64,000 nucleotides of DNA from Bacteroidia bacterium (GTDB lineage Bacteria > Bacteroidota > Bacteroidia > B-17B0 > Aurantibacillaceae), in NCBI GenBank assembly GCA_016787785.1, contig JAEUTO010000011.1:124001-188000 (forward strand), in the 5' to 3' direction. Numbering within the stretch: position 1 is the stretch's first letter; the number at the start of each line of letters is the position of its first letter. Position numbers and translations under genes: made by a program. Shown here one piece after another: positions 3,570-52,614 of the stretch. A model generated the notes under the pieces. It was not told the origin of the DNA and ran no database searches. It saw only the letters and a program-made list of their open reading frames with translations.

Positions 3570-3573
3570 GATG

Positions 3574-3581
3574 CAAAGATA
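3574..3581 (-). promoter_or_regulatory. Putative -7 box of prfB
   Basis: TATCTTTG matches the Bacteroidota -7 consensus TAnnTTTG and ends 4 bases before the prfB ATG. No TTG -33 element lies at the usual 17-23 base spacing. If the box is functional, transcription would begin at or next to the start codon. Confidence 0.5.
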
Positions 3582-3590
3582 ATAAAAAAA

Positions 3591-4424
3591 TCAGGATTGT
3601 TTTTTAAATGGCCAAAAAAATACGTAAGCAATTATCATAATGATACCAAAGCTTACAAGGCCTGTAACAAAAGCAATGTACAAATGCGTAAATATGCCTA
3701 CAAGCAGGAGTGGCTTTTTTACTTTGTCCATCCACACTAAAGCGGGAAATAGCAATTGATATAAAAGCACAAAATAATTAATAAAATAACCCATAAAACC
3801 TGTGCCAGTAAATGAAAAAGAAAATAAATTAAAATGTTCTATATTGCTTAAGTTAATAATGGCAGTGCCATTAAACCAATCGCTACTGTTTAATTTTGCA
3901 AGGCCCGCAATTAAATACACCAATTGAATTTGAATGATAATTGCAAGCGTGCCAAAATTGTGCATGCATTTTGAAAGTGAGTTTTGCCAGCTCAAATTCT
4001 CGCTAAATTTCTTAGAAAGAAAACAATTAAAAAATAATAACTGGTTCAAAAGAAAGTCGCCACCTGTTAGCGTTGGGTAGATCTTATTGTGAATATTAAT
4101 TACCAACAACCAGATAATAAATTCAAATACAAAAGGAATTTTTTTAATAAAATAGCTCAGCGCTAAAAAAACCAAAGTACCGCCAATAAAAAAATAGCCA
4201 AAAGCCGGCGCCGCATCATTATAAAGTATAAAAGCAACGTCTTTTAATTTACCTAAAGAGTATGGTCTTATATATGCAATGGCGTTGTTACCAAAATAAA
4301 GATCATAATAACAAAACCAGTATGCGGCCTTAATAGCTAAAAACAAATACAAAAGCTGTTTAAACCTAAGCGTTTGTAAGCTTAAATTATATACTGTAAA
4401 AAAATAGGAAACAACCTTTTTCAA
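3591..4424 (-). CDS. HTTM-like multipass membrane protein
   Basis: A 277-residue hydrophobic protein with about six to eight predicted membrane segments. The stretch LVYLIAGLAKLNSSDWFNGTA resembles the HTTM domain (horizontally transferred transmembrane domain, related to the membrane part of vitamin K-dependent gamma-carboxylase), where a conserved G-x-x-K and a W with a following G-T-A recur. The function of bacterial HTTM proteins is mostly unknown. The start is a TTG at 4424 (TTG AAA AAG): the frame is closed by a TAA five codons upstream and no ATG intervenes. It is divergent from the next membrane protein gene, with about 30-57 bases between the starts. Confidence 0.65.
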   Translation of the reverse strand: MKKVVSYFFTVYNLSLQTLRFKQLLYLFLAIKAAYWFCYYDLYFGNNAIAYIRPYSLGKLKDVAFILYNDAAPAFGYFFIGGTLVFLALSYFIKKIPFVFEFIIWLLVINIHNKIYPTLTGGDFLLNQLLFFNCFLSKKFSENLSWQNSLSKCMHNFGTLAIIIQIQLVYLIAGLAKLNSSDWFNGTAIINLSNIEHFNLFSFSFTGTGFMGYFINYFVLLYQLLFPALVWMDKVKKPLLLVGIFTHLYIAFVTGLVSFGIIMIIAYVFFWPFKKQS

Positions 4425-4481
4425 ATAGTATTGATATTAAATAGCTAAATTTAGATGTTTATTTTTACCTTTTATAGCTTA

Positions 4482-5726
4482 ATGACAATTTTTAAAAATA
4501 AAATTTGGCTTTTAGTACTATTTCTTGGCGCTATTGTTTTTTGTTTTGTAGAAGCAAAAGGTAAAGGCGATTTCTATATTTTTTTGTCGGCTACAGGTGA
4601 TCTTATCAAGGGCGAGAATTTTTATGAGAATAAATACGTAGACGGTTACCATTATTTTTACTCGGTACTGTTCGCTTTACTTTTAAAACCCTTTTACTGC
4701 CTTCCGTTCTTTTGGTTAAAATTTTGCTGGTTGCTTTTAAACTGCTGCATTTATTTTAAATTGTTTCAAATGCTTACTAAAATAAAATTATTAGAATTGC
4801 TAAACCAAAAACAACGTTCACTTTTTATTTTTCTTGTTTTTATTTTTTCGTTACGCTTGTTTTTAGATAACATGCATGCCTCGCAAATAACCTTGGTTAT
4901 ACTTTGGTGTTGCATTTACGGACTTTATCTTATTACACATAACAAACCCATTAGTGGTGCGGCCATATTAGCGTTAGGCATCAACATAAAATTATTGCCT
5001 ATTGTTTTTTTACCCTATTTAATTTACCGCGGCTATTTTAAAGCCTTTGCATTTACTGTTTTATTTTATCTGCTGTATTTATTTGCGCCTTCACTTTTTA
5101 TTGGCCACAACTACAATATGTCTCTTTTAAAAACATGGCTGGCTCTAATTAATCCAACCAACCAGGCACACGTGTTAGACGTGGAAGAAAGGAGCTTTCA
5201 CGGCTTGTCTACTCTTTTATCAACGCTCTTTGTAAAAAATGTTCCGGATGTTTATGCGCTGCCGCTAAAAAGAAATATTGCTGATGTAAGTCTCACTGCG
5301 TTAAGCTCGTTACTTTTAATTACGCGCCTTGCGTTAGTTTCCTTTACACTTTTCTTCTTAAAATGGAAACCACTTACGAAAGCACGATCGGCATGGCAAC
5401 AATTTATTGAACTCAGTTACATGCTTTTATTGATCCCGTTAATTTTTCCACATCAACAACATTATGCTTTTTTATTTGCCGTACCTGCGTTTGCAGTTAC
5501 ACTTCTTTACTTGATGATAAATTATTCTGAAATGCGAAAACAAACACGATTAACTGTTCTTGCGGTGTTGATCTTGATCTATTTATGCGTTAATTTAAAA
5601 TTGCTCTTAGGTGTATACAATAACTACTACGATCATTATAAGATCTTAACCTATGGTGCATTGTTACTAATTCCTTTATTGATCTGGATCTCTCGTAAAA
5701 CAAAAAACGTTACAAGTTTGTCATAA
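4482..5726 (+). CDS. GT87-like (DUF2029) membrane glycosyltransferase
   Basis: A multipass membrane protein of about 414 residues that resembles the DUF2029/GT87 family, polyprenyl-phosphate-mannose-dependent glycosyltransferases with about ten membrane helices. Support comes from the early acidic loop FYIFLSATGDLIKGENFYE before the second helix and the DNMHASQITLVILWC and GINIKLLPIVFLPYLI segments typical of the family. An ATG at 4455 is also in frame; I prefer 4482 because a TAAATTTA box close to the -7 consensus ends one base before 4455. The sugar and acceptor are unknown. The 3' end overlaps the convergent T9SS protein gene by 17 bases. Confidence 0.7.
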   Translation: MTIFKNKIWLLVLFLGAIVFCFVEAKGKGDFYIFLSATGDLIKGENFYENKYVDGYHYFYSVLFALLLKPFYCLPFFWLKFCWLLLNCCIYFKLFQMLTKIKLLELLNQKQRSLFIFLVFIFSLRLFLDNMHASQITLVILWCCIYGLYLITHNKPISGAAILALGINIKLLPIVFLPYLIYRGYFKAFAFTVLFYLLYLFAPSLFIGHNYNMSLLKTWLALINPTNQAHVLDVEERSFHGLSTLLSTLFVKNVPDVYALPLKRNIADVSLTALSSLLLITRLALVSFTLFFLKWKPLTKARSAWQQFIELSYMLLLIPLIFPHQQHYAFLFAVPAFAVTLLYLMINYSEMRKQTRLTVLAVLILIYLCVNLKLLLGVYNNYYDHYKILTYGALLLIPLLIWISRKTKNVTSLS

Positions 5727-7956: not shown

Positions 7957-8076
7957 GACATTAAAATCGAACCCTTAAATTACAAAAAATAACCCAAATT
8001 TTTAGGCCATCTTATATGTGGAAGCTTTTTACTTTTATTTGGCATTATCTCTTTCGTTTTTGGGCCTTTTTTTGCA

Positions 8077-8084
8077 TATTTTTG
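8077..8084 (+). promoter_or_regulatory. Putative -7 box before the FG-GAP protein gene
   Basis: TATTTTTG fits TAnnTTTG and ends 4 bases before the ATG at 8089. A TTG lies only 14 bases upstream, outside the usual 17-23 spacing, so the -33 element is weak or absent. Confidence 0.45.
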
Positions 8085-8088
8085 TTAT

Positions 8089-10329
8089 ATGTTTAAATAT
8101 ATAATTATAGCATCTTTTACGCTTTTTGCAAAACTATCAATAGCTCAATTATTAGTGGCCAGAGATACTATTACAGTGATAGAAAATAATTATGTATTAA
8201 AAATGCCATGGACAAATGGTGTAAGCTCTTCCAATGTTTCCAATATGGATCTTAATTATGATGGCAAGCCGGATGTAGTTGTTTACGATAAGGTAACACA
8301 ATTTTCTGTTGGACGCTTTCGCTGTTTTATTAATGTTGGTGCCCCCGGGCAAACCAAATACGTTAGCGATCCCGACCTGAGTTATCGTTTCCCCTTTGTT
8401 TCTAACTGGGCCGTTTGTTTAGATTATAATTGTGATGGTAAGGAAGATCTTTTTTGTTCGGTTAACGGTGGCATCTCCGTTTATAAAAATATTGGTAATG
8501 CTACAACGGGTATAAATTTTGTTTTAGTAAAAGCGGTCATCAATTCTGATTTTAACCCATCGGGTCCACCATCCATTGGCCCTCTATATGCCAGCACTAT
8601 TGGCGTGCCCGGCCTCGCCGATCTTGACGGTGACGGCGATATTGATATCCTTACTTTTAGCTCGGGCGGGTATTATGTTGAACATCACAAAAATATGAGC
8701 AAAGAAATGTATGGACATTGTGATAGTTTAGTTTACGAAGAAGCTGCAGCCTGTTGGGGAAAAATATCTGAGCAAAGCTGCACTATTGCTTTAAATCAAT
8801 GTAGCCTAAATATTGCGCCTAACCCCAATGTTCAACCAATCGCCAAACGTCACGCCGGTTCGTGTTTAATGTGTATTGATGCAAATAATGATAACCTTAT
8901 GGATCTTGTAATGGGCGATATTTCGTGTAACACAGTTCAGTTCGCGCACAATACAGGCACTGTAGCGCATGCTGTTATTTCTGATACAACAATGCAATAT
9001 CCAAACTATCCAAATAAAAATAATACATTAAGAATTAAAATGGATAATTTTCCGTGTGCCTATTATGTAGACTGTGATGGCGATGGTAAAAAAGACCTGG
9101 TTGCTTCGCCCAACACTTATGGAAGCGAAAATGTAACAAGTATGTGGTATTACAAGAATACAAGTTTAACCAACACAGTGAATTTTCAATTTGTAAAAAA
9201 GAATTTTTTACAAGATGAGACCATTGATGTAGGACAAAATTCTTTTCCCGTTGTTTTTGATTATAACAACGATGGAAAAAAAGATCTTTTAATTGGCACC
9301 TGGGGTTATTTTAACAGTGGAAGTTTGACGGCGAAATTAACATTATATAAAAATGTTGGTCTTTCTTTATCTCAACCTACTTATTCTTTAATAACCCGCG
9401 ATTTTGCAAACTTAAGTGTGCAGGGTTTAAATAACATAATGCCAACGGTTGGCGATATAGATACGGACGGTGATATAGACATTTGCGTAGGCAGCTCAAG
9501 CGGACAAATACATTGGCTTGAAAATTTAGGTGGCGTTGGAAATTACCTTTTCCATAATAATAGTTTTTCTATTACTACGCTTTCAGCAGCATCTGCACCA
9601 CAATTATATGATATTAACGGCGATAATTTGCTCGATTTAATGGTTGGCACAAAAAATGGCAGAATAGCTTATTACAAAAACATTGGAACAGCATCTGCTC
9701 CCGCATTTACTTTAATGACAAATTATTTTGGAAACATAGATGTAAAGGGCGATATAAATTTTTATGGTATTGATGGTTATGCGGTACCCTATTTTTATAA
9801 ATCAGGAAGCAACACTAAATTATTAGTAGGTAATGTACATGGCCAAATATTTTATTATGATGTACCTGCACCTGCTTCCATTTTAACCAATAGCTGTACT
9901 TTAATTAATGCCACAACCAACAATCTTAACGAAGGCGGACAAGCGGCGGTTTGTTTTGAAGATGTGAATAATGATGGTAAGCGCGATCTTTTTGTTGGTA
10001 ATGGCTCCGGAGGTTTAAGCTTTTTTTCATCAGCCTCGCCATTTGTAGGTTTAGAAGAAGTAAGCTCAATTAAATTAAACGATCATGTTACTTTATTTCC
10101 AAATCCAGCTACAGATCATTTGCAATTAACGATCGACGGATTAGAATTTGAGAACGGAGCATTTGTACTTTATGATCTTTTGGGCAAACAACTACAAACC
10201 GAAACCATCAACCAAAACAAACAAACATTTTTGCTGAACAAAATTACAAGCGGTGTTTATTTTGCAAAGATTAGCATTAATACTAATTCGCAAACCTATT
10301 CTGTTACTAAAAAAATAATCATTAATTAA
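8089..10329 (+). CDS. FG-GAP/VCBS repeat secreted protein with T9SS type A sorting domain
   Basis: A 746-residue surface protein with a signal peptide ending near SIAQ at residue 20. I count nine calcium-binding-like loops of the FG-GAP/VCBS beta-propeller type, including NYDGKPDVV, NCDGKEDLF, LDGDGDIDIL, CDGDGKKDLV, NNDGKKDLL, DTDGDIDIC, NGDNLLDLM and NNDGKRDLF. The last 80 residues are a T9SS type A sorting domain: LFPNPATDHLQLTI, VLYDLLGKQLQT, and SGVYFAKI. The next gene begins directly after the stop codon in the same frame. The ligand is unknown; such propellers often bind glycans or protein partners. Confidence 0.9.
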   Translation: MFKYIIIASFTLFAKLSIAQLLVARDTITVIENNYVLKMPWTNGVSSSNVSNMDLNYDGKPDVVVYDKVTQFSVGRFRCFINVGAPGQTKYVSDPDLSYRFPFVSNWAVCLDYNCDGKEDLFCSVNGGISVYKNIGNATTGINFVLVKAVINSDFNPSGPPSIGPLYASTIGVPGLADLDGDGDIDILTFSSGGYYVEHHKNMSKEMYGHCDSLVYEEAAACWGKISEQSCTIALNQCSLNIAPNPNVQPIAKRHAGSCLMCIDANNDNLMDLVMGDISCNTVQFAHNTGTVAHAVISDTTMQYPNYPNKNNTLRIKMDNFPCAYYVDCDGDGKKDLVASPNTYGSENVTSMWYYKNTSLTNTVNFQFVKKNFLQDETIDVGQNSFPVVFDYNNDGKKDLLIGTWGYFNSGSLTAKLTLYKNVGLSLSQPTYSLITRDFANLSVQGLNNIMPTVGDIDTDGDIDICVGSSSGQIHWLENLGGVGNYLFHNNSFSITTLSAASAPQLYDINGDNLLDLMVGTKNGRIAYYKNIGTASAPAFTLMTNYFGNIDVKGDINFYGIDGYAVPYFYKSGSNTKLLVGNVHGQIFYYDVPAPASILTNSCTLINATTNNLNEGGQAAVCFEDVNNDGKRDLFVGNGSGGLSFFSSASPFVGLEEVSSIKLNDHVTLFPNPATDHLQLTIDGLEFENGAFVLYDLLGKQLQTETINQNKQTFLLNKITSGVYFAKISINTNSQTYSVTKKIIIN

Positions 10330-14351: not shown

Positions 14352-15047
14352 TCACAATTTCCTGGCAGCAAAAGCAATGCTGGCCACAGAAATTTTAATT
14401 CCTTCGATATCTTTTAAGGCTAGCCACGCAGCTTCAATGGTGGCGCCAGTTGTTATTACATCATCCACCAATAAAGCATGTTTATTTACCAAAGCATTTT
14501 GATCTTTGATCTTAAAGATGCCTTCCACATTTTCCCAACGTTGGTATTTTTTCTTTTTGGTTTGCGTGCTTGTTTCATGTACACGTTCTAATGAATGAAT
14601 GTCCAAGGGTTTTTCGAGCACGTTTGCCAAACCTTTTGCAAACCATTCGCTTTGGTTATAACCACGCTGTTTTAGTTTTTTCTTGTGTAAAGGAATAGGT
14701 ATTATCACGTCTACATCATCATTTATAGTTGTTTTTACAAGTTCCTGCGCATACAGATCGCCAATAAAGCGGGCCAGTTCTTTTTGGTCCTGGTACTTTA
14801 TGGCGTGGAGCAGTTTTTGAACCTTACCGCTTTTTTCAAACAAATAAAAACAAAGGCCATTGCTCAACGGCACCCTTCCCGCAAAGGTTTGGCTAAGTTC
14901 GTTAACCTCATTTTTGTGGTAATTGCTTTTAGGAAGGTTTAATTTACAGTGGTTGCAAATGTAGATCTCATGCTTAAAAAGGCCATTTGCACAGGCTTCG
15001 CAGTGCCTTGGGTAAATTAATGACATGAAATCGTTAATAAGTGTCAT
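14352..15047 (-). CDS. comF: ComF family phosphoribosyltransferase-like protein
   Basis: A 231-residue ComF homologue. The N-terminus carries a four-cysteine zinc-finger-like pair (CEAC at the start and CNHC about 17 residues later), and the C-terminal half is a type I phosphoribosyltransferase fold with the PRPP loop ALLVDDVITTGAT and the family motif IPIPLHKKKLKQRGYNQSE. In Bacillus ComF takes part in DNA uptake during competence; elsewhere its role is uncertain. I chose the ATG at 15047; a GTG at 15068 is also in frame but lies inside a perfect inverted repeat. Confidence 0.9.
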   Translation of the reverse strand: MTLINDFMSLIYPRHCEACANGLFKHEIYICNHCKLNLPKSNYHKNEVNELSQTFAGRVPLSNGLCFYLFEKSGKVQKLLHAIKYQDQKELARFIGDLYAQELVKTTINDDVDVIIPIPLHKKKLKQRGYNQSEWFAKGLANVLEKPLDIHSLERVHETSTQTKKKKYQRWENVEGIFKIKDQNALVNKHALLVDDVITTGATIEAAWLALKDIEGIKISVASIAFAARKL

Positions 15048-15061
15048 ACAATTACCACTAA

Positions 15062-15080
15062 AATACACTTTTTGTGTATT
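15062..15080. repeat. 7-bp inverted repeat between divergent genes
   Basis: AATACAC-TTTTT-GTGTATT is a perfect 7-bp palindrome with a 5-base spacer. It lies between the divergent starts of comF (15047) and the coiled-coil protein (15092), touching the -7 box of the latter. It could be an operator or an mRNA hairpin; chance occurrence in AT-rich DNA is possible. Confidence 0.5.
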
Positions 15081-15087
15081 ATTTTTG
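15080..15087 (+). promoter_or_regulatory. Putative -7 box before the coiled-coil membrane protein gene
   Basis: TATTTTTG matches TAnnTTTG and ends 4 bases before the ATG at 15092. This favours 15092 over the upstream GTG at 15074 as the start. No -33 TTG at normal spacing was found. Confidence 0.45.
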
Positions 15088-15091
15088 TATT

Positions 15092-16012
15092 ATGAGTGAA
15101 GAAAAAGAAAATTCAAACAAAAAAAGAGGTATTATTTTATGGGTGATCATTCTTCTTTTAATGGGCACCAATGGATATACTATTTGGTTACTGTTAAAGG
15201 AACAGAATAGAGTGGTTGAACAAAAAATAGTTACCGAAACTATTATTGTTGAACGCGACAATGTAAAATCAGATCTTTTGGTACTTCAAAAAGATTATGA
15301 TGGATTGGTGGCAAAAGACGCGGTAATGCAAAAGGATATTGATGAGAAAAAAGCCCGCATTGAAGAATTGATCCTTGAGGCCGAAAAACACAAAGGCGAC
15401 GCCTATATGCTTTCAAAACTCAGAAAAGAAGCTGAAACGCTACGTAGTATTATGCAAGGTTATGTAAGAACAATTGACTCTTTAAATACTTTGAACCAAA
15501 ACCTGGTAGCTGAAAAGAAAACGGTTTTAAAACAACTGGATGTTGAAAAGGAAAAACAAAATACGCTTGTAAAAGAAAAAGAAGAACTTAAAACAACAAT
15601 AGCAAAAGGAAGTATTTTAACCTGCTTTAATATTGGCGCAAAAGGTGTTGCTTTTAAAAGAGGTGGCAAAAAAGAAGTTGAAACGTCGAAAGCCCGCAAG
15701 ACCGAAAAAATAAAAGTAACCTTTAGTTTGGGCGAAAATAAAATTGCCAAGGCCGGTGAAAAAACAGTTTATGTTCGTATTATGACGCCTGATGGAAAAG
15801 AAATGGCAAAGAGTTACGACGAGACCTATAAATTTACCTTTGATAAAAGCAGCGGTTATTACGCGGGCAAAGAAACACTCAACTATGCCAATACCGAAAT
15901 TACCGGTGTTACCTATTGCGAAGGCCAGGGCGAATTGGTGCCAGGTAATTATATCATCACCATTACATGTGATGGCGTGACGATTGGAAGCAGCACGTTA
16001 AAATTAAATTAG
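15092..16012 (+). CDS. Coiled-coil inner-membrane protein, unknown function
   Basis: A 306-residue protein not assigned to a named family. It has one membrane helix at about residues 15-32 (IILWVIILLLMGTNGYTIWL), a long charged coiled coil (about 35-170, heptad-like with K/E/Q), and a C-terminal beta-rich domain (about 180-306). The latter contains KVTFSLGENKIAKAGEKTVY and VRIMTPDGKEMA, and ends with YIITITCDGVTIGSSTLKLN, like a small Ig-like or bacterial surface domain. The likely topology is a single-pass anchor with a periplasmic coiled coil. A strong terminator follows. The gene is divergent from comF. Confidence 0.8.
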   Translation: MSEEKENSNKKRGIILWVIILLLMGTNGYTIWLLLKEQNRVVEQKIVTETIIVERDNVKSDLLVLQKDYDGLVAKDAVMQKDIDEKKARIEELILEAEKHKGDAYMLSKLRKEAETLRSIMQGYVRTIDSLNTLNQNLVAEKKTVLKQLDVEKEKQNTLVKEKEELKTTIAKGSILTCFNIGAKGVAFKRGGKKEVETSKARKTEKIKVTFSLGENKIAKAGEKTVYVRIMTPDGKEMAKSYDETYKFTFDKSSGYYAGKETLNYANTEITGVTYCEGQGELVPGNYIITITCDGVTIGSSTLKLN

Positions 16013-26759: not shown

Positions 26760-26767
26760 TATATTTG
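26760..26767 (+). promoter_or_regulatory. Putative -7 box of the second Cys-pattern gene
   Basis: TATATTTG matches TAnnTTTG and ends 3 bases before the ATG at 26771. No TTG is found 17-23 bases upstream. Confidence 0.45.
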
Positions 26768-26770: not shown

Positions 26771-27262
26771 ATGAAAGTTTCGAAAAAAAATTTATTTCTT
26801 TTAATTTTAGGATGCGCTCTGTTTTCATGTTCACAAAAAAAATTAGTAAGCACTACTATTACCTTTATGCAGCCTTATTGCGGAGGCGCACGTCCAACAC
26901 CTGAAATACAAGCTGATGCCTTAAAAGCAAAGCCTTATTCTAACAGAACCATTGTTGCGGTTTCAAGTAAAGGCAGGGTAGATTCCGCAAAAACAAATGC
27001 TGATGGCACGTTTAAAATAAATTTAAAACCAGGCACTTATAAATTATTTGAAGCTTGGCGTTATTATAAAAAAGCAACAGCAGGACTTGCTGTTAGTGAT
27101 TTTGATAAAGAATGTATTAAGGCCGAATGGAAAAAAGAAATAAAAGAAGTTATTGTTTCAAAAATGGAAGTTAAAATAAATGATAAGAATGAAATTATTG
27201 AGGTTTGCCCATGGAATTTACCCTGCATTCTTGAATCTCATAAGCCACCAGCTCACGAATAA
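26771..27262 (+). CDS. Cys-pattern lipoprotein, copy 2 (unknown function)
   Basis: A 163-residue predicted lipoprotein: the leader MKVSKKNLFLLILGCALFSC ends in a lipobox-like LFSC. It is a paralogue of the protein at 20569-21057. The shared landmarks are QPYCGGARP, GRVDSAKTNADGTFKINLKP with GTYKLFEAWRYY, SDFDKECIKAEW and the terminal CX5C CPWNLPC. The spacing between landmarks is conserved, while overall identity looks modest. Unlike copy 1 it stands alone and is anchored rather than soluble. The ATG at 26771 follows a -7 box by 3 bases; an upstream TTG at 26765 lies inside that box. No function can be assigned. Confidence 0.75.
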   Translation: MKVSKKNLFLLILGCALFSCSQKKLVSTTITFMQPYCGGARPTPEIQADALKAKPYSNRTIVAVSSKGRVDSAKTNADGTFKINLKPGTYKLFEAWRYYKKATAGLAVSDFDKECIKAEWKKEIKEVIVSKMEVKINDKNEIIEVCPWNLPCILESHKPPAHE

Positions 27263-33024: not shown

Positions 33025-33699
33025 CTATTTCAAAAGGTCTGGGCGGCGCAGCTTGGTGCGCTCTAAGCTCTGCTCATGGCGCCACTTATCAATGTTGGCG
33101 CTATGTCCGCTCAATAATATCTCCGGTATGGTCCAACCGTTAAACTCTGCAGGCCTTGTATATACTGGTGGGGCGAGCAAATTATCCTGAAAAGAGTCAC
33201 TTAGGGCCGAGGTTTCATCGTTTAAAACGCCCGGTAACAGGCGTATAACGCCGTCGCAAAAAGCGGCCGCGGGTATCTCGCCTCCGCTTAAAACATAATC
33301 GCCAATGCTAATTTCTTTTGTAATTAAGTGCTGGCGCACCCTTTCGTCTACTCCCTTATAATGACCGCAAAGTATTATCATATTTTTTAAAAGCGAGTAT
33401 TGGTTGCAGAGTTTTTGGCTTAGTAACTCGCCATCTGGGCTCATATAAATTACTTCGTCGTAATCTCTTTTGGACTTGAGATCGGCCATGCAAGCGGCTA
33501 TTGGCTCAATTGATAAAACCATTCCTGCACCGCCGCCAAAGGCGTAATCATCTATTTGCTTTTGTTTGTTGGTAGAATAATCGCGGAGGTTTATAAGGTT
33601 TACCTCTACCAGCTTATTAGTAATGGCCCTTTTTAGGATAGAATGGCCAAAAAAGCTGGTCATTAGGTCGGGAACAGCGCTAATAATATCAATTCTCAT
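33025..33699 (-). CDS. trmD: tRNA (guanine-37-N1)-methyltransferase
   Basis: TrmD methylates N1 of G37 next to the anticodon and prevents +1 frameshifting. The protein has 224 residues, slightly short of E. coli TrmD (255) but usual in Bacteroidota. Trefoil-knot SAM-binding motifs are visible: [34 protein letters not shown] and [20 protein letters not shown], followed by [13 protein letters not shown] and the C-terminal [20 protein letters not shown]. The usual neighbours (rimM, rplS, rpsP) are not next to it here. Confidence 0.97.
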
Positions 33700-33795
33700 G
33701 CTGTAAAGATAGACTTTTTAACAAAATTACAGCCTTAACCATTTGGTAACATTTGCCTAAGGATTTAAATAAGCTGTGCTTGTAATTTTACATCA

Positions 33796-34944: not shown

Positions 34945-34952
34945 TACCTTTG
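34945..34952 (+). promoter_or_regulatory. Putative -7 box of the ABC-F gene
   Basis: TACCTTTG matches TAnnTTTG and ends 6 bases before the ATG at 34959. The TTG inside the box at 34950 is an in-frame alternative start, which this reading makes unlikely. Confidence 0.45.
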
Positions 34953-34958: not shown

Positions 34959-36863
34959 ATGAATTTACTGTCTATAAACAACCTTTCTAAAGCCTACGGC
35001 GCAAAAAAACTTTTTAATAAAATAAGCTTTGGTATAAATTACGGCGAAAAAGTAGCACTGGTTGCAAAAAATGGTTCGGGTAAAACAACACTCTTTAAAA
35101 TTTTAAAAGGTATTGAAATTGCCGATGAAGGCGATGTTACTTTTAGAAAAGATATTACCGTAGGTTTTCTTGATCAGAATTTTACGTTTGATGAAAATGC
35201 AAGCATTCAACAGTTAATAGATACGGCCGATAATAAATTTGTACGCGCTATAAGAGAGTATGACGATGTAATTAAATTAAGCGAAACATCTACCGATCCA
35301 AAAGTTGCAGACAGGTTAGAAGAATCACTCAACCAGATGAATTTAATTGACGCCTGGGATTACGAAAAAAATATTGTAGAGATCTTATCGCGCTTAGAAA
35401 TAAGAGATAACTCCCAAATAGTAAAAACACTTTCGGGTGGACAAAAAAAACGTGTTGCTCTTGCACTAACGTTAATTAACCGTCCTAATTTAATTATTAT
35501 GGATGAGCCAACTAACCATTTGGACATTGATATGATAGAATGGTTAGAAAATTATTTACAGGATGCATCGTTAAGTATTTTATTAGTAACACACGACCGT
35601 TATTTTTTAGATGAGGTTTGTGATAAAATTATTGAGATAGATAATTATCAATTATACGAATACAACGGCAACTTTGATTATTATTTAGAAAAGAAAGCAG
35701 AGCGCGAACAAATTGCCAATGCAGAAATTGATAAGGCAAGAAATGCTTATCGCCGTGAAGTTGTGTGGGTGCGTAAAATGCCAAAGGCGCGTGGCACAAA
35801 ATCAAAATCGCGCGTGGATGCGTTTTATGAGATCGAGAAAAAAGCAAAACAAAAACGCATTGAGAAAAAAATTGAGCTTACCGTTAAAATGGAACGCATG
35901 GGTTCTAAAATTGTTGAGCTGCATCACATCACAAAAAATTATCCGAACAAAGCTATTTTAACCGAGCCTTTTACTTACACATTTATTCCCGGAGAAAAAA
36001 TTGGTGTGGTTGGAAAGAATGGTGTTGGTAAAACAACTTTATTAAATATAATTCAGGGTAAAGAAAAAGTTGATACTGGTAAAGTTGCCCTGGGAGATAC
36101 AATTGTTTTTGGTTATTACTCGCAAGCGGGTATGATTATCAATAACGATAAACGTATCATTGAAATTGTGCAGGATATTGCAGATCATATTCCCTTAGCC
36201 AATGGCACAAGCCTTTCGGCATCGCAATTATTAACACGTTTTAATTTTACACCAAGTGTTCAATTCAGTTACGCGCATACCTTAAGTGGGGGCGAGAAAA
36301 GAAGATTGTACTTGTTAACCGTGTTAATGAAAAATCCCAATTTCTTAATTCTCGATGAGCCTACAAACGATCTTGACATTGTTACATTACAAACGCTCGA
36401 AGATTTTTTGGAAGAATTTAAAGGTTGTGTTTTAATTGTTTCGCACGATCGCTATTTTATTGACAGGTTGGTTGATCATACATTTGTATTAGAAGGAAAC
36501 GGTACTATTAAAGATTTTCCCGGCAACTATACCGAATACCGCGAATGGAAAAGCAATCAAAAAGGTGAAGCGTTTCCCGTTCTTGAAATTGAACCTGCAA
36601 TGATTGAAAAAAAAGTTGCCGAGGTTAAACCCGTAAGCGAAACGCCTGCAAAAAAATTGTCTTACAAAACCCAACGTGAATTAGAAATTCTTGAAAAAGA
36701 AATTCCGACGCTGGAAGAAAAAAAGAAACAGTTAGAAGAAAAATTAGCAAGCGGAATAACAGATTACAACGAGATCCAAAAAATAAGTAACGAATTAAAA
36801 GCGCTTGCGAAAGATCTTGACGAAAAATCTATGCGTTGGTTAGAGATCCAGGAAGAGGTGTAA
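34959..36863 (+). CDS. ABC-F family ATPase (Uup-like)
   Basis: A 634-residue soluble protein with two ABC ATPase domains and no membrane segments, as in the ABC-F family that acts on the ribosome. The first domain has Walker A in VAKNGSGKTTLFKIL, signature TLSGGQKKRVALAL and Walker B LIIMDEPTNHLDIDM. The second has VGKNGVGKTTLLNIIQ, signature HTLSGGEKRRLYLL and LILDEPTNDLDI. A C-terminal coiled coil from about residue 555 (TQRELEILEKEIPTLEEKKK) marks the Uup subgroup, which in E. coli affects transposon excision and ribosome assembly. The start at ATG 34959 gives MNLLSINNLSKAYG. Confidence 0.93.
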   Translation: MNLLSINNLSKAYGAKKLFNKISFGINYGEKVALVAKNGSGKTTLFKILKGIEIADEGDVTFRKDITVGFLDQNFTFDENASIQQLIDTADNKFVRAIREYDDVIKLSETSTDPKVADRLEESLNQMNLIDAWDYEKNIVEILSRLEIRDNSQIVKTLSGGQKKRVALALTLINRPNLIIMDEPTNHLDIDMIEWLENYLQDASLSILLVTHDRYFLDEVCDKIIEIDNYQLYEYNGNFDYYLEKKAEREQIANAEIDKARNAYRREVVWVRKMPKARGTKSKSRVDAFYEIEKKAKQKRIEKKIELTVKMERMGSKIVELHHITKNYPNKAILTEPFTYTFIPGEKIGVVGKNGVGKTTLLNIIQGKEKVDTGKVALGDTIVFGYYSQAGMIINNDKRIIEIVQDIADHIPLANGTSLSASQLLTRFNFTPSVQFSYAHTLSGGEKRRLYLLTVLMKNPNFLILDEPTNDLDIVTLQTLEDFLEEFKGCVLIVSHDRYFIDRLVDHTFVLEGNGTIKDFPGNYTEYREWKSNQKGEAFPVLEIEPAMIEKKVAEVKPVSETPAKKLSYKTQRELEILEKEIPTLEEKKKQLEEKLASGITDYNEIQKISNELKALAKDLDEKSMRWLEIQEEV

Positions 36864-38569: not shown

Positions 38570-39379
38570 CTAATAAGCAACTTCTGCGTGAAGTCCAATG
38601 CCTACCGGAATCTTATTCCATTTATCCTGGCTGGCCTGACGGAAATAAGTAGGACTACCCACCAACTTTGCAGAAAAATATAACCCTTTTACATCGCCCA
38701 GATCTTTTATCCATTCTAAAGAAATAAACACATCATCATCAACATATAAATTATAAGGCGTCAGATCTAATTCTATTAATCCTGTTTTGTCTTTCATCTC
38801 TACAATAACATTTTGCTTTAAGAGATTATCTTTTGGATTACCCTTTTCATCTTTATTATAAACGTTAAATCTAAAAATTGGTTTTTCGATAGAGTTTCTT
38901 GGTACATTCAGGAAAAATTTACGCAATTGTGTGTTTGGGTGTTTGATATTTAATTTTACTGCCAGCTCGGCGCCTAAAGTGTTTTTAACAAAGCCGGCGG
39001 TAACACCATTTGTTTTAGTATCGTTACCTAAAATTTTAATTTTGGTTTTTTTACCCGAAATAACCACTTCGTTTAAGTTAGTTGCTGCTTGCGCCAGTTT
39101 AATTTTATTTAAAGTAGATAAGTTTGCGGCAGAAAAAGTTTTTGACTTATAGCCTATCATAGAAACTTTTATAGGCGCGTTGGCTACACTATCCGGCACG
39201 GCAAAATTAAATTCGCCTTGCTCGTTGGTAACGGTACCAACGCCTTTACCAACAATACCAATATTTGCAAACTCAATGGGTTGATTGGTTAAACTATCAT
39301 ACAAATAACCTCTACAGATCTTCTGAGAAAACAAAGAAGAAAAAATTAAACTAAAAAGGAGAACGGTAAATAATTTCAT
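38570..39379 (-). CDS. Secreted protein with carboxypeptidase regulatory-like domain
   Basis: A 269-residue exported protein. The signal peptide covers residues 1-18 (MKLFTVLLFSLIFSSLFSQ). A carboxypeptidase regulatory-like domain spans about 20-105 (RGYLYDSLTNQPIEFANIGI, GVGTVTNEQGEFNFAVPDS, VSMIGYKSKTFSA). The C-terminal 150 residues form a beta-rich domain with LRKFFLNVPRNSIEKPIFRF and DDVFISLEWIKDLGDVKG, seen in Bacteroidota outer-membrane-associated proteins, and end in GIGLHAEVAY. No function is known. It lies 57 bases after the ALDH-like gene on the same strand. Confidence 0.82.
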   Translation of the reverse strand: MKLFTVLLFSLIFSSLFSQKICRGYLYDSLTNQPIEFANIGIVGKGVGTVTNEQGEFNFAVPDSVANAPIKVSMIGYKSKTFSAANLSTLNKIKLAQAATNLNEVVISGKKTKIKILGNDTKTNGVTAGFVKNTLGAELAVKLNIKHPNTQLRKFFLNVPRNSIEKPIFRFNVYNKDEKGNPKDNLLKQNVIVEMKDKTGLIELDLTPYNLYVDDDVFISLEWIKDLGDVKGLYFSAKLVGSPTYFRQASQDKWNKIPVGIGLHAEVAY

Positions 39380-39436: not shown

Positions 39437-40318
39437 TTAATATTTTGCTCCGCCAATGCCAATATTCTCTATAGGATGCCAGGTTGTTTTAATTTCCTGA
39501 AGGTCTAAAATTAGATATGGATTTTGATTTTCATCTTTGCTCCAATCTTTATTCCAATTAAAAGAACGCTTAACATTCAGCGAAGAGTTCTCTGAAATGG
39601 TTTTTGCTTCTTCTTTATTATTACGGCAATAAATAATAGCGTTCACATCCATATGAGAAGAAAAATGACTATGCAATTCTTTTGATGTGCCTGTTAAAAT
39701 ATTTATTACGCCGCCGGGAAGATCAGATGTAGCAAACACTTCGGCTAATGTAACTGAACTTAACGGCAAACTGTTAGATGCCAGAACAACGCAGGTATTG
39801 CCTCCACAAATAACAGGCGCAACAACACTTACCAAACCTAACAATCCAGAATCTTCAGGAGCAATTATTGAAACAACACCTGTTGGCTCAGGTACCGAAA
39901 AATTAAAATGTGATGAGGCTACAGGATTTACAGAACTAAATAATGCTGAATATTTATCGCACCAGCCGGCATAATACACCAACCTATCAATACTTTGTAA
40001 CACTTCTGTTTCTGCGGCTTTTGTAGTAAGACCCTGCAACACCAACTCCTCAATAAATTGTGCTTTTCTACCTTCCAGCATTTCGGCAATGCGGTATAAA
40101 ATTTGGCTACGATTAAAAGCTGTTTTACCACTCCATCCTGCAAATGCAGAACGGGCCGCAACAACGGCATTTCTATAATCTTTGCGGGACGATAAACAAA
40201 CGTTGGCAACAGTATCGCCCTTTTTATTTAAGAGTGCGTAATAGCGTCCACTCTCGGTGCGCGGAAATTGACCGCCAATATATATTTTGTATGTTTTTAA
40301 AACGTTTAAACGCGCCAT
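39437..40318 (-). CDS. Truncated aldehyde dehydrogenase homologue (no catalytic half)
   Basis: A 293-residue protein homologous to the N-terminal part of aldehyde dehydrogenases, which are normally about 480 residues. Family landmarks are YIGGQFPRTESGRYY, AARSAFAGWSGKTAFNRSQI with LYRIAEMLEGRK, and EPTGVVSIIAPEDSGLLGLV with VAPVICGGNTCVVLAS. The Asn of the usual PWN motif and the Lys of the usual VLKPS motif are missing (APEDSG; VLASNS), and the ELGGK and catalytic-Cys regions are absent. It ends cleanly at IENIGIGGAKY with no continuation in the 57 bases to the next gene. It is probably not an active dehydrogenase. Confidence 0.8.
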   Translation of the reverse strand: MARLNVLKTYKIYIGGQFPRTESGRYYALLNKKGDTVANVCLSSRKDYRNAVVAARSAFAGWSGKTAFNRSQILYRIAEMLEGRKAQFIEELVLQGLTTKAAETEVLQSIDRLVYYAGWCDKYSALFSSVNPVASSHFNFSVPEPTGVVSIIAPEDSGLLGLVSVVAPVICGGNTCVVLASNSLPLSSVTLAEVFATSDLPGGVINILTGTSKELHSHFSSHMDVNAIIYCRNNKEEAKTISENSSLNVKRSFNWNKDWSKDENQNPYLILDLQEIKTTWHPIENIGIGGAKY

Positions 40319-46771: not shown

Positions 46772-47590
46772 TCAAGCCAGATCGGCAAAGTAGGCTTCGG
46801 TTTTTTTAAAGTATACCAAACCAATTATAAAAATCCCTAAAGATGAAGTGATGCTAACAAGATCGGTCTCCCAATTAATAACACCGTTGGTTATACCTGC
46901 CCTAAAAATATCCAGCGGAGCTGTCATTGGGTTCAAAGCCAACAAACCTTTCAGATAAATATTTTGCGTAATGTTAGTTGGATAAATTACCGGCGTAACA
47001 AATAATAAAAACTGCACTAAAAAAGGAATGATATACCGCACATCGCGGTACTTCACATTTAAAGCAGCCAAGAAAGAGCCCGCGCCAAAAGCAGCAATGC
47101 AGGTTAAAATAACAGCGAGTGGAAAATAAACTAAACCGCTCCACGAAAACGGAACATCCTTAAATAAACAATAAACAATAAATACCGCAAAGGCCATAAA
47201 AAAATCAAATACGCCAACTAATACTGCTGAGATCGGAATTATTAAACGCGGAAAATATATTTTTTTTATAATGTTGGCATTTGATACCATGCTATTACCA
47301 GCGTTATTTATACCTGAAGAAAATATACCCCAAAGTACTAAACCGCTTAGGGCAAACATTTCGTAAGGTAACGGAAGTTGTGTGTAACTGCTAATGGCTT
47401 TTCCTAAAAAGAAAGAAAATAACAAAGCCATAATTAAAGGTTGTAACACGGCCCACAAAAAACCTAAAACAGTTTGTTTGTATTTTACTTTAATATCGCG
47501 TAAAGTGAAAAAATAAAACAGCTCGCGATATTCCCACAGTTCGTTTAAACCGAGGCTTAACTTTTTTTGAGGTTTTATTTCAAATTCCAT
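46772..47590 (-). CDS. ABC-2 permease for polysaccharide export (Wzm-type)
   Basis: A 272-residue membrane protein with about six helices matching the ABC-2 permeases that export O-antigen or teichoic-acid-type polymers. The N-terminal LWEYRELFYFFTLRDIKVKY, then KQTVLGFLWAVLQPLIMALL, is diagnostic, as are NANIIKKIYFPRLIIPISAV near the middle and RYIIPFLVQFLLFVTPVIYP near the C-terminal helices. The cognate ATPase (Wzt) is normally the next gene; here none is adjacent on either side. It is the last of three minus-strand genes after the Ddl fusion and DUF1543 genes. Confidence 0.9.
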   Translation of the reverse strand: MEFEIKPQKKLSLGLNELWEYRELFYFFTLRDIKVKYKQTVLGFLWAVLQPLIMALLFSFFLGKAISSYTQLPLPYEMFALSGLVLWGIFSSGINNAGNSMVSNANIIKKIYFPRLIIPISAVLVGVFDFFMAFAVFIVYCLFKDVPFSWSGLVYFPLAVILTCIAAFGAGSFLAALNVKYRDVRYIIPFLVQFLLFVTPVIYPTNITQNIYLKGLLALNPMTAPLDIFRAGITNGVINWETDLVSITSSLGIFIIGLVYFKKTEAYFADLA

Positions 47591-47617
47591 TTACGTAAAA
47601 ATAGTGAATTGTATTAA

Positions 47618-48190: not shown

Positions 48191-48204
48191 AAAGAAGATC
48201 AGGT

Positions 48205-50904
48205 CTAAGAAACTGCTGCTAAACGCTCTTTACCAAAATCAAGGATCTTGTCGATAAACTCGTAAGGCTTGTAATTATTAATGGCGGCCTGATGAAAGAT
48301 ACAGGTAGCGGGTGTCATACCTGGTAACGAATTAACTTCAATAAAAATTATTTCGGCTCTGCAATCGTCAAAAACCCTTACAAATGCATCGATCCTGCAA
48401 TAACCGGTAACACCCAGTGCTTTGGCGGCACCACCTAAAGCCGCTTTTACCTGCTCGCTTACTTTCTGTCTGTCTTTTGCATCTTTCGCGTAACGCGCAG
48501 GTGTAATATTTTGCCCTTGCCCTGCTAAGAATTTTTCTTCCAGACTTAAAATTTCGCCATCTGCCAATGCTTCTGAGGCCTCAAATACTTCGTATTCAAT
48601 TTCACCATTTTTATTTAGCTTGGTGAGCATGCCGCCGGTTATTTCTAAAAAGTGGGTTGCATTTTTTTTGCTGATCAATTCTTCAACCAAAATAACCTGC
48701 TTTTGCGGAAATTCTTCTTTTGGCTTTATATGTAATGTTTCTGCTGCCTGCGCGTCAAATTCTTCAGTAGTGCGGAAGATCAGTTTACAAAACGCTTCAA
48801 ACTCTGCCAGCGTTTTTATTTTTTTCACTGCACTGCTGCAGCCGTCATCAACGGGTTTGGCAATAAAAGGATATTTAATTCGGTCCTTTAATATGTCTGC
48901 GAACTTGTTTTTGTCTTTTACCCAATCTTCTTTTGAGATTAAAATATGATCGGCAATAAGAAAACCGTTGTTCTTTAGAATTTCGTTGGTGCGGTATTTA
49001 TCAATCGTAATGGAAGAACTTTCTTTGTTAGAACCGTTGTATGGTAAATTTATTTTATCCAGTTGTTCCTGTATTGCACCGTCCTCGCCCGGGCGACCAT
49101 GCAAAGCAATAAATACCTCGTCGGCTTTTAATTTTAACGATGCGTACGTTAGTCTTTCAGGTTCTGCTGTGTGATTTGCCGACGCATATTTATGTGTTAT
49201 AGCTTCGCATTGCTGCATAATGCTTTTTATAACTTCATGCACCTTAAAATTCTCAACTTTTTCTTTAATGTCATCTGCATTATCCTTCAATAATAAATTA
49301 ATAGGCACATGATACATTTGATGCTCTTGCGAATTGCCGGTTAAAAACACTGGAAAGGGTGCGTATTTTTCTGACGACGCTAATTTTTCAAAAACATTCC
49401 TTCCGCTCTCAACAGAAATATGACGTTCTGACGAATAACCTCCCAGCACAACAGCCACGCGCGTTTTATTGCTGGTTGCGTTTTTGTCCTTATCAATTTG
49501 TGCGTCTAACAACTCTAATAAGTGCCTATACTTAACATTTCCTTTTGACTGGATCAAACGTTTGGAAAGCGACGTGCGAATTATAAAAGTTAAAAATTGC
49601 GACGGATTCAATCCAATTTCTGCTGCCTGATGAAAAAAGAAAGAAGAAGGCATCATTCCACTGGTAGTGTTTGGATCATTCAAAAATATCTTTCCATCCT
49701 TACTTAAAAATCCGTCAATGCGGGCGTAAACATCAAAATGTAATTCGTAAAATAATCTTTCGCAGTCTTTTCTTATTGCTTCAATTTGTTCGTCCGGCAG
49801 ATCAATAGGTGTTATCTTTCTTGAAAGTCCCGGCAAATATTTACTACGGTAGTCAAATAATTCTTTTCCTTTTTTTATTTCTGTTGGTGGTAATGCAATT
49901 GCTTTTCCATTTTCATCTTCCAGCACTATGCAACTAAATTCTTTTCCCTCAATAAACCCCTCAACCAAAACGGTACTTTCTCCATCAATACTTTCTATAA
50001 TAAAGCCGTCCGTTTTTAAATTGACATTTAAAAATTCTATTAATTTATTTGGGTCGTAAATTACAGGTGCGTTTAATTCTTTTGGGAAACTAATAACAAC
50101 CGGCATGCCCATACCTTCGCGGATATCGGCTAATACTTTTACATAATTAAATTTTTCTTCATCACTAAAGCCTTGCCATTCTTTCGCATCCAACCAGCGC
50201 GTGAACAGTGCTTTTTCAACTGCGCTCATAAATTCAAAATCATTTGGCTCATTTAAAATGCTAACGCCAATACTCGAACCCTGATTAGCCGGTTTTACTA
50301 CGCAAGGAAAACCTATAAGCTCTGCTACCTTTTTAAGAGATGTTTTTGATTTGCCATCTATCCAATCCTGTCTGTTAATAGTAAGGTATTTTGGACTATT
50401 AAATCCTTTACTTACCATCATTTCTTTTTGAACTGCTTTATCAATACCAATTGCAGAGGCTAAAATTCCTGAACCGCTATAGGGTATCTGATAATATTCG
50501 AACAAACCTTGTATGCGCCCATCTTCGCCATAAGGCCCATGCAAACATAAAAACGCAAAATCAATTTTTGTTTTAAGATCGGCCGGCGATAATTTTTTCC
50601 CGATCTTTTGTATCAATGCATTTTGCTGTTCTGCATTAAGATCGCCTAAATTTTCTGCGTATAATTGAAAGCGGGAATTATTTGGCAAAAATTCTACCGG
50701 TGGATAAAAATCGCGAATGGTGCCTTTGTAAATATATTCCCAATTCAGTTCAATAAAATTGCCGAAGCTATCAACAAAAACAGGAACCGCTTCAAATAAA
50801 AATTTATTTAAATTATCGTAAACGGTTCTTCCACCCGCAAAAGAAATTTCGCGCTCTTTACTTTGCCCGCCAAAAATGATCCCGATCTTTATTTTATTTG
50901 CCAT
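48205..50904 (-). CDS. ddl: Tandem D-alanine--D-alanine ligase fusion
   Basis: An 899-residue protein made of two complete Ddl/ATP-grasp units, residues 1 to about 455 and about 475 to 899, each the size of a normal ligase. Unit 1 has IIFGGQSKEREISFAGGRTV, HGPYGEDGRIQG, PYSGSGILASAIGIDK, KPANQGSSIGV, and ARIDGF, then NDPNTTSGM. Unit 2 has VVLGGYSSERHISVESGRNV, HGRPGEDGAIQEQ, PYNGS, KPVDDGCSSAVKKI, CRIDAF and the canonical metal motif EVNSLPGMTP. In unit 1 the ExN metal motif is DxN and PG is SG. Ddl makes the D-Ala-D-Ala dipeptide for peptidoglycan. Whether both units are active is not evident. Confidence 0.88.
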   Translation of the reverse strand: MANKIKIGIIFGGQSKEREISFAGGRTVYDNLNKFLFEAVPVFVDSFGNFIELNWEYIYKGTIRDFYPPVEFLPNNSRFQLYAENLGDLNAEQQNALIQKIGKKLSPADLKTKIDFAFLCLHGPYGEDGRIQGLFEYYQIPYSGSGILASAIGIDKAVQKEMMVSKGFNSPKYLTINRQDWIDGKSKTSLKKVAELIGFPCVVKPANQGSSIGVSILNEPNDFEFMSAVEKALFTRWLDAKEWQGFSDEEKFNYVKVLADIREGMGMPVVISFPKELNAPVIYDPNKLIEFLNVNLKTDGFIIESIDGESTVLVEGFIEGKEFSCIVLEDENGKAIALPPTEIKKGKELFDYRSKYLPGLSRKITPIDLPDEQIEAIRKDCERLFYELHFDVYARIDGFLSKDGKIFLNDPNTTSGMMPSSFFFHQAAEIGLNPSQFLTFIIRTSLSKRLIQSKGNVKYRHLLELLDAQIDKDKNATSNKTRVAVVLGGYSSERHISVESGRNVFEKLASSEKYAPFPVFLTGNSQEHQMYHVPINLLLKDNADDIKEKVENFKVHEVIKSIMQQCEAITHKYASANHTAEPERLTYASLKLKADEVFIALHGRPGEDGAIQEQLDKINLPYNGSNKESSSITIDKYRTNEILKNNGFLIADHILISKEDWVKDKNKFADILKDRIKYPFIAKPVDDGCSSAVKKIKTLAEFEAFCKLIFRTTEEFDAQAAETLHIKPKEEFPQKQVILVEELISKKNATHFLEITGGMLTKLNKNGEIEYEVFEASEALADGEILSLEEKFLAGQGQNITPARYAKDAKDRQKVSEQVKAALGGAAKALGVTGYCRIDAFVRVFDDCRAEIIFIEVNSLPGMTPATCIFHQAAINNYKPYEFIDKILDFGKERLAAVS

Positions 50905-51192
50905 ACCTAAAATTACCTACAAAGGTCTATATTATTCAAAAGTATAAGAAAGCGCGAGTTTTAATACAACCGAATTTGGATTTAATTAACATTCGTATGT
51001 AAATACCGGAATTGACCAAAACAACCGCCCATCAAATTAGCGCTCTTTGCCAAAAGCCGCAGAGTCGGTGTTTATACAAAGAATTGGCGGTAAAGCTGCC
51101 TTATTTGTCGGCCAGCCAAAACCGAGGTTTCGCCATTACCATTCACGTAAATTTAAAAATAGTGTAAAGCTTTATGTGTATTTTTATAGCCT
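50905..51192. other. Intergenic region with a GC-richer core
   Basis: This 288-base gap between divergent genes holds no frame with coding character. The 100 bases from about 51035 to 51134 (GCGCTCTTTGCC onwards) contain 50 G or C by direct count, clearly above the AT-rich surroundings. No tRNA fold, known riboswitch or repeat was recognised in it. Confidence 0.5.
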
Positions 51193-52437
51193 ATGTTAGT
51201 ACGGATATTAATTTTTTCCACCCTCATCATTCTTATTGAACTGTATTTTTTGCAAGCTGTAAAAACATTTGTACAGGATTTTAGCCAGGGAAAAAAAACA
51301 GTAATACTTTATACAACTTATGCCATAGCTTGTATAAGTATTTTAATGGCAATTGTGGCAGTGGTATATCCGCCGCCAAACTGGGCTCCATTTTTACGTT
51401 TTCTTTCTTCTATTCTGGTAATAATTGTATTATGTAAATTAATAGGTTGCACGTTTTTATTGGTAGATGATATTATTCGTTTATTCAGATGGATATTTTC
51501 TTTTTTTAAAGCTAAGCCTGCAGAAGCAGTGGTTGCAGCAGAAGGCATTAGCCGGTTAAAATTTTTAAGTCAAATTGCAATTACATTTACCGTTGTGCCA
51601 GCCGTGGGTTTTATTTATGGTATGGTAAGGGGCGCATATAAATACCGTGTGCACAACGTTAAACTGCCTTCTTCAAATATCCCAAAAGAGTTTAATGGAT
51701 TTAAAATTGTTCAGCTTTCTGATATTCACACCGGGTCTTTTTTAAACGAAGATGGATTAAAAAAAGCATTTGAAATTGTTGCAGAACAAAAGCCAGATCT
51801 GATATTGTTTACCGGCGATCTTGTAAATAACGAGGCTAAAGAATTAGAAGGCTTTGAGCATTTATTTAAAAGTTTAAATGCGCCGCACGGAGTATTTTCT
51901 GTTTTGGGAAATCACGATTATGGCGATTATGTACAATGGGATAGTCAACAAGCTAAGCGTGAAAATTTAGAAAGATTAAAAGCAAAACAAAAAGATTTTG
52001 GTTGGAGATTGTTGATGAACGAACATTTACCTATTGAAAAAGACGGAGCACAAATTGGCTTAATTGGTATTGAGAACTGGGGTGGTAACATGCGTTTTCC
52101 GCGTTACGGTAAAATGAAAGAAGCTTATGAAGGCGCCGAAAAATATCCTTTTAAGATCTTAATGAGTCACGACCCGAGCCATTGGGATATGCAGGTAGTT
52201 TTAGAATACCCTGAAGTTGATCTTACGTTAAGCGGCCACACACATGGTATGCAGTTAGGAATTGAAATTCCCGGCTTTAAATGGAGCCCCATAAAATACA
52301 TGTATAAAAACTGGGCAGGTCTTTACAAACAAGATAAACAAATGTTGTATGTTAATCGCGGACTTGGCTTTTTGGGCTACCCGGGCCGCCTGGGTATTTG
52401 GCCGGAGATAACGGTTATTGAATTACAGTCTGTTTAA
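51193..52437 (+). CDS. Membrane-anchored metallophosphoesterase
   Basis: A 414-residue protein. The first 150 residues contain about four membrane helices, and the C-terminal part is a calcineurin-like phosphoesterase of the YkuE type. The metal-binding motifs are in order: LSDIHTGSF (DxH), FTGDLVNNEA (GD), VLGNHDYGDY (GNHD), LMSHDPSHWDM (H) and LSGHTHGMQLG (GHxH). Relatives hydrolyse phospholipid-related phosphate esters (for example UDP-diacylglucosamine in the LpxH/LpxG group), but this one cannot be assigned a substrate. The start is at ATG 51193. A nested inverted-repeat element follows the gene. Confidence 0.9.
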   Translation: MLVRILIFSTLIILIELYFLQAVKTFVQDFSQGKKTVILYTTYAIACISILMAIVAVVYPPPNWAPFLRFLSSILVIIVLCKLIGCTFLLVDDIIRLFRWIFSFFKAKPAEAVVAAEGISRLKFLSQIAITFTVVPAVGFIYGMVRGAYKYRVHNVKLPSSNIPKEFNGFKIVQLSDIHTGSFLNEDGLKKAFEIVAEQKPDLILFTGDLVNNEAKELEGFEHLFKSLNAPHGVFSVLGNHDYGDYVQWDSQQAKRENLERLKAKQKDFGWRLLMNEHLPIEKDGAQIGLIGIENWGGNMRFPRYGKMKEAYEGAEKYPFKILMSHDPSHWDMQVVLEYPEVDLTLSGHTHGMQLGIEIPGFKWSPIKYMYKNWAGLYKQDKQMLYVNRGLGFLGYPGRLGIWPEITVIELQSV

Positions 52438-52440
52438 AGT

Positions 52441-52597
52441 TTAGCCACAAATTTCTCAAATAAGTTTTTCTATTATTGCAAATTGGTTTTAATTTAAAAA
52501 TTCATGCCCAAATTTTTGTCATGAATTTGAACTGCACTAATTATCTATTTAAAAAAGTAAAAAATGCTTTGTGTTAATTCGTGAAATTAGTGCCTAA
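52441..52597. repeat. Nested inverted-repeat element (intergenic)
   Basis: The outer imperfect repeat joins 52441-52463 (TTAGCCACAAATTTCTC onwards) with 52574-52597 (GTGAAATTAGTGCCTAA at its end). Inside are a perfect 9-bp stem AAATTCATG/CATGAATTT (52498-52506 with 52520-52528), and GCACTAATT at 52534-52542, exactly complementary to AATTAGTGC at 52585-52593. The element occupies most of the gap before the YdeI-like gene. Its layout resembles the element at 19093-19230, with a different sequence. Confidence 0.7.
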
Positions 52598-52601
52598 TAA
52601 T

Positions 52602-52609
52602 TATATTTG
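52602..52609 (+). promoter_or_regulatory. Putative -7 box of the YdeI/DUF1905 gene
   Basis: TATATTTG matches TAnnTTTG and ends 5 bases before the ATG at 52615, immediately after the inverted-repeat element. A TTG lies 30 bases upstream, outside normal spacing. Confidence 0.45.
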
Positions 52610-52614
52610 AGACT

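Follow-up and report, generated by a model that had tools for sequence, protein, structure and literature searches.

Analysis of a 64,000-nucleotide stretch of the genome of a Bacteroidia bacterium (contig JAEUTO010000011.1, positions 124,001 to 188,000; hereafter the window) revealed genes that carry a TAnnTTTG box only a few bases before their start codon. We consider it very probable that these boxes belong to ordinary sigma-ABfr promoters yielding leaderless or near-leaderless mRNAs, with the transcription start site (TSS) placed from promoter geometry. The box would be the -7 element of an ordinary housekeeping (sigma-ABfr) promoter adjoining the start codon. RNA polymerase would begin on the A of the AUG or a few nucleotides (nt) ahead of it. 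The mRNA would be leaderless or near-leaderless, and the ribosome would have to take its 5′-terminal AUG directly. In Flavobacterium johnsoniae, many sigma-ABfr TSSs are found 4 or 5 nt after the -7 box TAnnTTTG (TAHHTTTG) (PMC6847099). Therefore, a gap of 4, counted as the bases between the box end and the start codon, would set +1 on the A of the AUG. We infer the TSS position from this spacing; the leaderless mode of translation is inferred as well.

The first-pass annotation of the window had reported six exact TAnnTTTG boxes 3 to 6 bases before start codons. All six are present, at gaps 4, 4, 4, 3, 6 and 5. The prfB start, given there as 3570, was corrected to the ATG at 3569-3567 on the minus strand. 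Beyond the original six, three more window genes have near boxes, which end in A. One of them belongs to trmD, a gene that the earlier list lacks. The boxes are the following, with the box of the leadered gene ahcY for contrast:
3574-3581, minus strand: box TATCTTTG of prfB, gap 4 to the ATG at 3569-3567
8077-8084, plus strand: box TATTTTTG, gap 4 to the ATG at 8089 (FG-GAP repeat protein with a type IX secretion system tail)
15080-15087, plus strand: box TATTTTTG, gap 4 to the ATG at 15092 (306-amino-acid protein without a Pfam match at E 0.001)
26760-26767, plus strand: box TATATTTG, gap 3 to the ATG at 26771 (CarboxypepD_reg-like, under the Pfam cut-off)
34945-34952, plus strand: box TACCTTTG, gap 6 to the ATG at 34959 (ABC-F type ATPase)
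52602-52609, plus strand: box TATATTTG, gap 5 to the ATG at 52615 (DUF1905/OmdA)
33704-33711, minus strand: box TATCTTTA of trmD, gap 4 to the ATG at 33699
47596-47603, minus strand: box TATTTTTA, gap 5 to the ATG at 47590 (ABC-2 permease)
50908-50915, minus strand: box TAATTTTA, gap 3 to the ATG at 50904 (D-Ala-D-Ala ligase-like)
55053-55060, minus strand: box TATCTTTG of ahcY, leadered, gap 37

The strongest evidence for the near-box arrangement is its conservation in the genus. For each gene, 30 genus loci were compared, own locus counted in, and a near box was scored when TAnnTTTR occurred at gap 2-8, for which the chance rate is about 0.02 per start. A near box was found in all 30 loci of prfB and in 29/30 loci of 15092, 26 of them at gap 4. 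For 8089, it was found in 28 of the 29 loci that could be placed out of 30, with many orthologs at gaps 5-7. For 26771, 26/30 loci had one (14 of the 26 at gap 3); some of these loci are about 40% identical and perhaps paralogs. Conservation was lower for the ABC-F gene (14/30 loci, two more having the box at gap 9 and two at 34 and 38) and for 52615 (17 of the 27 placed out of 30 loci, some of them weak matches). Because the box lies at 34 and 38 in two loci, the ABC-F gene appears to have moved between near and leadered modes. As a forward test, trmD was chosen before its orthologs were retrieved, and 28/30 loci carried a near box, 16 of them at gap 4. With the control gene ahcY, no near box was observed in any of the 30 loci, and a box at gap 24-40 was visible in all 30, in line with its earlier description as a leadered contrast gene. 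The gap of 6 in 34959 and the gaps of 5-7 in many 8089 orthologs would correspond to leaders of about 1-3 nt, so that the term near-leaderless is apt for part of the set.

Two features of these loci may be mentioned. In 6 of the 17 near-box loci of 52615, for instance L166, L170, L179 and L185, the start behind the near box is GTG. At 15047-15092, a divergent gene pair has its starts 44 bp apart, and most loci of the genus preserve the short upstream region that the two genes share.

The excess of boxes at starts was then quantified, with expected near-box counts taken from the far-upstream rate (positions 45-131 before starts). In the window, about 0.2 exact boxes are expected at gaps 3-6 and six are observed. 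The excess is confined to starts, the whole window showing no enrichment of TAnnTTTG (89 matches versus 110.5 expected from shuffles). Counting was extended to a 1.657 megabase (Mb) sample of the source genome, window included, representing 36% of its 4.6 Mb in 16 contigs, and to 0.4 Mb from G030, another species of the same genus. Gene starts came from a simple hexamer caller, blind to the upstream motif and used without validation against annotation. Genes were left out when fewer than 160 nt preceded them in their stretch, and starts at GTG or TTG were tallied separately from ATG. In the own-genome sample, 24 of 1118 called ATG starts had an exact box at gaps 3-6, versus 4.6 expected. With the looser TAnnTTTR, 67 were counted versus 12.4 expected, gap 4 being the most frequent with 26. 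In the G030 sample, the counts were 11 versus 0.7 expected for the exact box and 19 versus 2.6 for TAnnTTTR, both highest at gap 4. The excess near starts that the first-pass annotation proposed to look for genome-wide is thus visible in the 36% sample and in the 0.4 Mb of G030. As decoys in the own sample, internal in-frame Met codons had an exact near box in 22/7603 cases and intergenic non-start ATGs in 30/7336. GTG/TTG starts (4/156) are uninformative as a negative class since such start calls are uncertain. The window is a favourable stretch for near boxes, with 5/47 called ATG starts (prfB being outside the 47) versus 19/1071 elsewhere. After subtraction of background, there are about 19 near boxes versus about 116 exact boxes at up to 40 nt from a start, or roughly one sixth.

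When both samples were pooled, the TAnnTTTR gaps formed two humps, with 21.5 boxes per gap at 3-6, 11.3 at 7-16 and 20.5 at 17-22. The humps differ from the dip with P 7e-6 and 4e-6, for gap ranges picked after the histogram was viewed. By analogy with the F. johnsoniae TSS spacing, the first hump would correspond to leaders 0-2 nt long, whereas those of the second hump would measure about 12-18 nt. Because of the conservation among genus orthologs and of this two-humped histogram, the spacing between promoter and start codon appears to be under selection. The pattern TAHHTTTG-N-ATGAAA was also counted in 247 genomes and summed over the 60 of the same class only, that is, without the 186 of other classes and the own genome. 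In these 60 genomes, it occurred 943 times with near spacing (3-5), 613 times with mid spacing (11-13), a class that is not pure background since some leaders are equally short, and 1218 times with far spacing (20-22). Near exceeded mid in 49 of the 60, equalled it in 2 and was below it in 9.

The near boxes resemble leadered boxes in several respects. All six fit TAHHTTTG, without G at either free position. G at box position 4 was found in 1/86 near boxes and 5/216 leadered boxes, versus 10/116 chance boxes; G at position 3 was low in the near set alone (5/86, versus 30/216 leadered and 9/116 chance). The AT content 4-9 nt upstream of the box, around -18, was 0.82 for near, 0.81 for leadered and 0.69 for chance boxes (near versus chance, P 1e-5). 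F. johnsoniae sigma-ABfr promoters have in common with these the box, the avoidance of G at position 4, the AT-rich stretch around -18 and the lack of a clear -33 motif. It had been claimed that none of the six genes has a TTG at the usual spacing. Indeed, no TTTG/TTG was found 17-23 nt upstream of any of the six boxes. This absence is however uninformative, just 37/216 leadered boxes having a TTG there, as compared to 21/86 near and 17/116 chance boxes. Use of the -33 TTG as a discriminator was dropped, since neither near nor leadered boxes show a clear enrichment of it. As a separate observation in the own genome and G030, the base directly 5′ of the box is GC-richer, with an AT content of 0.52 for near and 0.58 for leadered boxes as compared to 0.74 for chance boxes.

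The prfB gene, whose product terminates translation at UGA stop codons, appears in the open reading frame (ORF) list just from an internal ATG at 3235, because it carries the frameshift site AGGGGGTTTCTTTGA at 3504-3520 (minus strand). Within this site, CTTTGA occupies 3509-3504 and its CTT is 60 nt after the true ATG. In the genus orthologs, the prfB ATG is likewise at -60 from the frameshift site. The relatives of prfB indicate Bacteroidota, as do the type IX secretion system sorting domains and the promoter box; prfB hits that carry a name reach no more than 84% identity. To cover the rest of the phylum, 100 further prfB loci were taken, namely the best 80 of 575 by similarity and 20 from other families. 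A box at gap 2-8 was found in 28 of the 95 that could be placed. It stood at gap 4-5 in 6/6 Pedobacter-titled, 3/3 Mucilaginibacter-titled and 2/2 Tenacibaculum-titled loci. Among the 7 Flavobacterium-titled loci, the box was at gap 19-22 in 4, and none was found within 52 nt in the remaining 3. Loci L305, L331, L335 and L336 have TTCG-type box variants close before the start, which were excluded from the near-box count. CTTTGA is at the expected place in 29/30 genus loci and in 81/95 placed loci elsewhere. A G-rich stretch precedes the prfB CTTTGA; Shine-Dalgarno sequences are rare in this phylum.

Near-leaderless transcripts, which the first-pass annotation had put forward as the simplest reading, are supported by the start-specific excess, the TAnnTTTR peak at gap 4, the conservation in the genus and the absence of near boxes in ahcY. 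Several observations weigh against them. One is the lower conservation of the boxes of ABC-F and 52615. The species of the genus are not independent trials, and the argument from conservation is that the box stays fixed while its flanks vary. In the own genome, the exact box shows no peak at gap 4 and is nearly flat over gaps 3, 4, 5 and 6 (6, 6, 5 and 7 cases). The TAHHTTTG-N-ATGAAA pattern has no near excess there (near 13, mid 13, far 22). With a gap of 3, as in 26771, the usual start point would fall within the AUG, unless the polymerase began one base early. A second AT-rich element around -28 separates near from chance boxes weakly (0.79 versus 0.71, P 0.02) and leadered from chance boxes not at all (0.73 for leadered, P 0.5). 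Finally, prfB starts 21 nt behind the same-strand gene 3591-4424, so that an mRNA reading through from that gene is possible.

Real promoters could also be combined with start codons called too early, translation beginning downstream of them behind leaders of normal length. This would fit 26771 and 8089, where codon position 3 after the ATG changes no more than position 1, with little sign of constraint; in 52615 and 15092 the coding constraint is partial. In contrast, over codons 2-12 of prfB the change rate is 0.22 at position 3 as compared to 0.07 and 0.04 at positions 1 and 2. For the ABC-F gene, it is 0.51 at position 3 versus 0.15 and 0.02. In both genes, the codons directly after the ATG clearly appear to evolve as coding sequence. 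Furthermore, reading of prfB from its ATG reaches the frameshift site 60 nt on, and a later start would leave the fixed gap to this ATG unexplained (in 15092, 26 of the 30 loci at gap 4). We therefore regard misplaced starts as improbable. An explanation that we hold to be quite improbable is that most mRNA arises by read-through from upstream promoters, the near box being minor or condition-specific. Besides the position of prfB, the 10 of 67 near-box genes that lie close behind a same-strand gene could be understood in this way. The other 57 do not lie so, a larger share than among the remaining genes, of which 333/1051 are close behind one.

Very improbably, the T-rich motif ahead of the AUG acts in translation, for example as a signal for ribosomal protein S1, rather than as a promoter. 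For Bacteroidetes, it has been suggested that a U-rich bias near -10 may be an S1 site (PMC5397173). Against such a role, the box occurs at gaps 15-30 as well, preceded by the same AT-rich stretch, and it is found far upstream in ABC-F orthologs (34 and 38) and throughout the ahcY loci (24-40). Chance matches in AT-rich upstream DNA almost certainly do not account for the set: the motif has no overall excess in the window, the ATGAAA pattern shows no excess at near spacing in the own genome and chance alone would supply about 12 of the 67 near boxes of the TAnnTTTR type, but the start-specific excess, the decoy counts and the ortholog conservation, including that of prfB, 15092, 8089, 26771 and trmD, stand against this view. 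Single unconserved near boxes may be chance matches.

A bolder proposal would be that Bacteroidota, in which most mRNAs have no Shine-Dalgarno sequence, maintain a dedicated, conserved leaderless set rich in translation-maintenance genes, for which leaderless initiation would be a separate regulable channel. We find this doubtful. Candidate members are prfB, trmD and the ABC-F ATPase, to which the sample adds TruA-, Sua5/YrdC- and CvfB-like genes. A Pfam scan covered 47 of the 52 listed genes with gaps 3-5 (40 sample genes and 7 window genes). The 47 scanned include a few genes for tRNA modification or translation beside many of other kinds, and without a background set no enrichment is claimed.

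Leaderless mRNAs as a kind are already known in the phylum; what is new here is the members, including prfB and trmD, the fixed gap and the conservation. In F. johnsoniae, 87% of predicted leaders are longer than 10 nt (PMC6847099), whereas here gaps 3-6 account for about one sixth of exact boxes at up to 40 nt from a start; the scales differ, since longer leaders are uncounted here. Leaderless mRNAs make up 5.5% of 890 coding sequences in Flavobacterium psychrophilum (PMC9723704), and about 3.7% of 5′ untranslated regions are shorter than 10 nt in Bacteroides thetaiotaomicron (PMC7366714). In these two members of the same phylum the leaderless class comes from mapped TSSs, whereas here it is deduced from DNA and conserved in the genus gene by gene. 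An earlier large survey (PMC3160421) classed many Bacteroidetes genes as 'atypical', perhaps leaderless ones whose promoters are unknown. The TA-led leaderless genes that it describes in Actinobacteria and Deinococcus-Thermus are alike in that a promoter box some 12 nt ahead of the start codon marks the gene as leaderless. The survey was unable to assign the phylum Bacteroidetes because it sought a Pribnow-like box, whereas the box here is TAnnTTTG. An AT-rich bias upstream of non-Shine-Dalgarno Bacteroidetes genes, maybe the -10 box of leaderless mRNAs, is described in PMC5397173, which cites reports of many leaderless mRNAs in Bacteroidetes. The portions of that paper dealing with the bias give no box, gap or gene-level conservation, all of which are given here. 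The scarcity of Shine-Dalgarno sequences in Bacteroidota is stated in PMC10783764, which also mentions leaderless mRNA in Flavobacteriia. In a literature search that was shallow and mostly open-access, we recognised no description of a conserved near-box class or of a leaderless prfB in Bacteroidota. In TSS maps of Bacteroidota, leaderless mRNAs form a small minority. The candidate class here is recognisable in the DNA itself and is maintained gene by gene within the genus. It offers named genes in which to study how ribosomes that make little use of Shine-Dalgarno pairing would start on a 5′-terminal AUG, and the near box could serve as a cue for gene-start prediction.

Two other window genes deserve mention. 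The 293-amino-acid ORF at 39437-40318 (minus strand) matches just positions 16-211 of the 461 in the aldehyde dehydrogenase profile. This gene may be split or truncated; the next ORF is 38570-39379 (minus strand). In the 899-amino-acid product of the ligase-like gene at 48205-50904 (minus strand), Pfam recognises the Ddl N-terminal domain in two stretches and the Ddl C-terminal domain in four, so that the protein may consist of D-Ala-D-Ala ligases fused in tandem.

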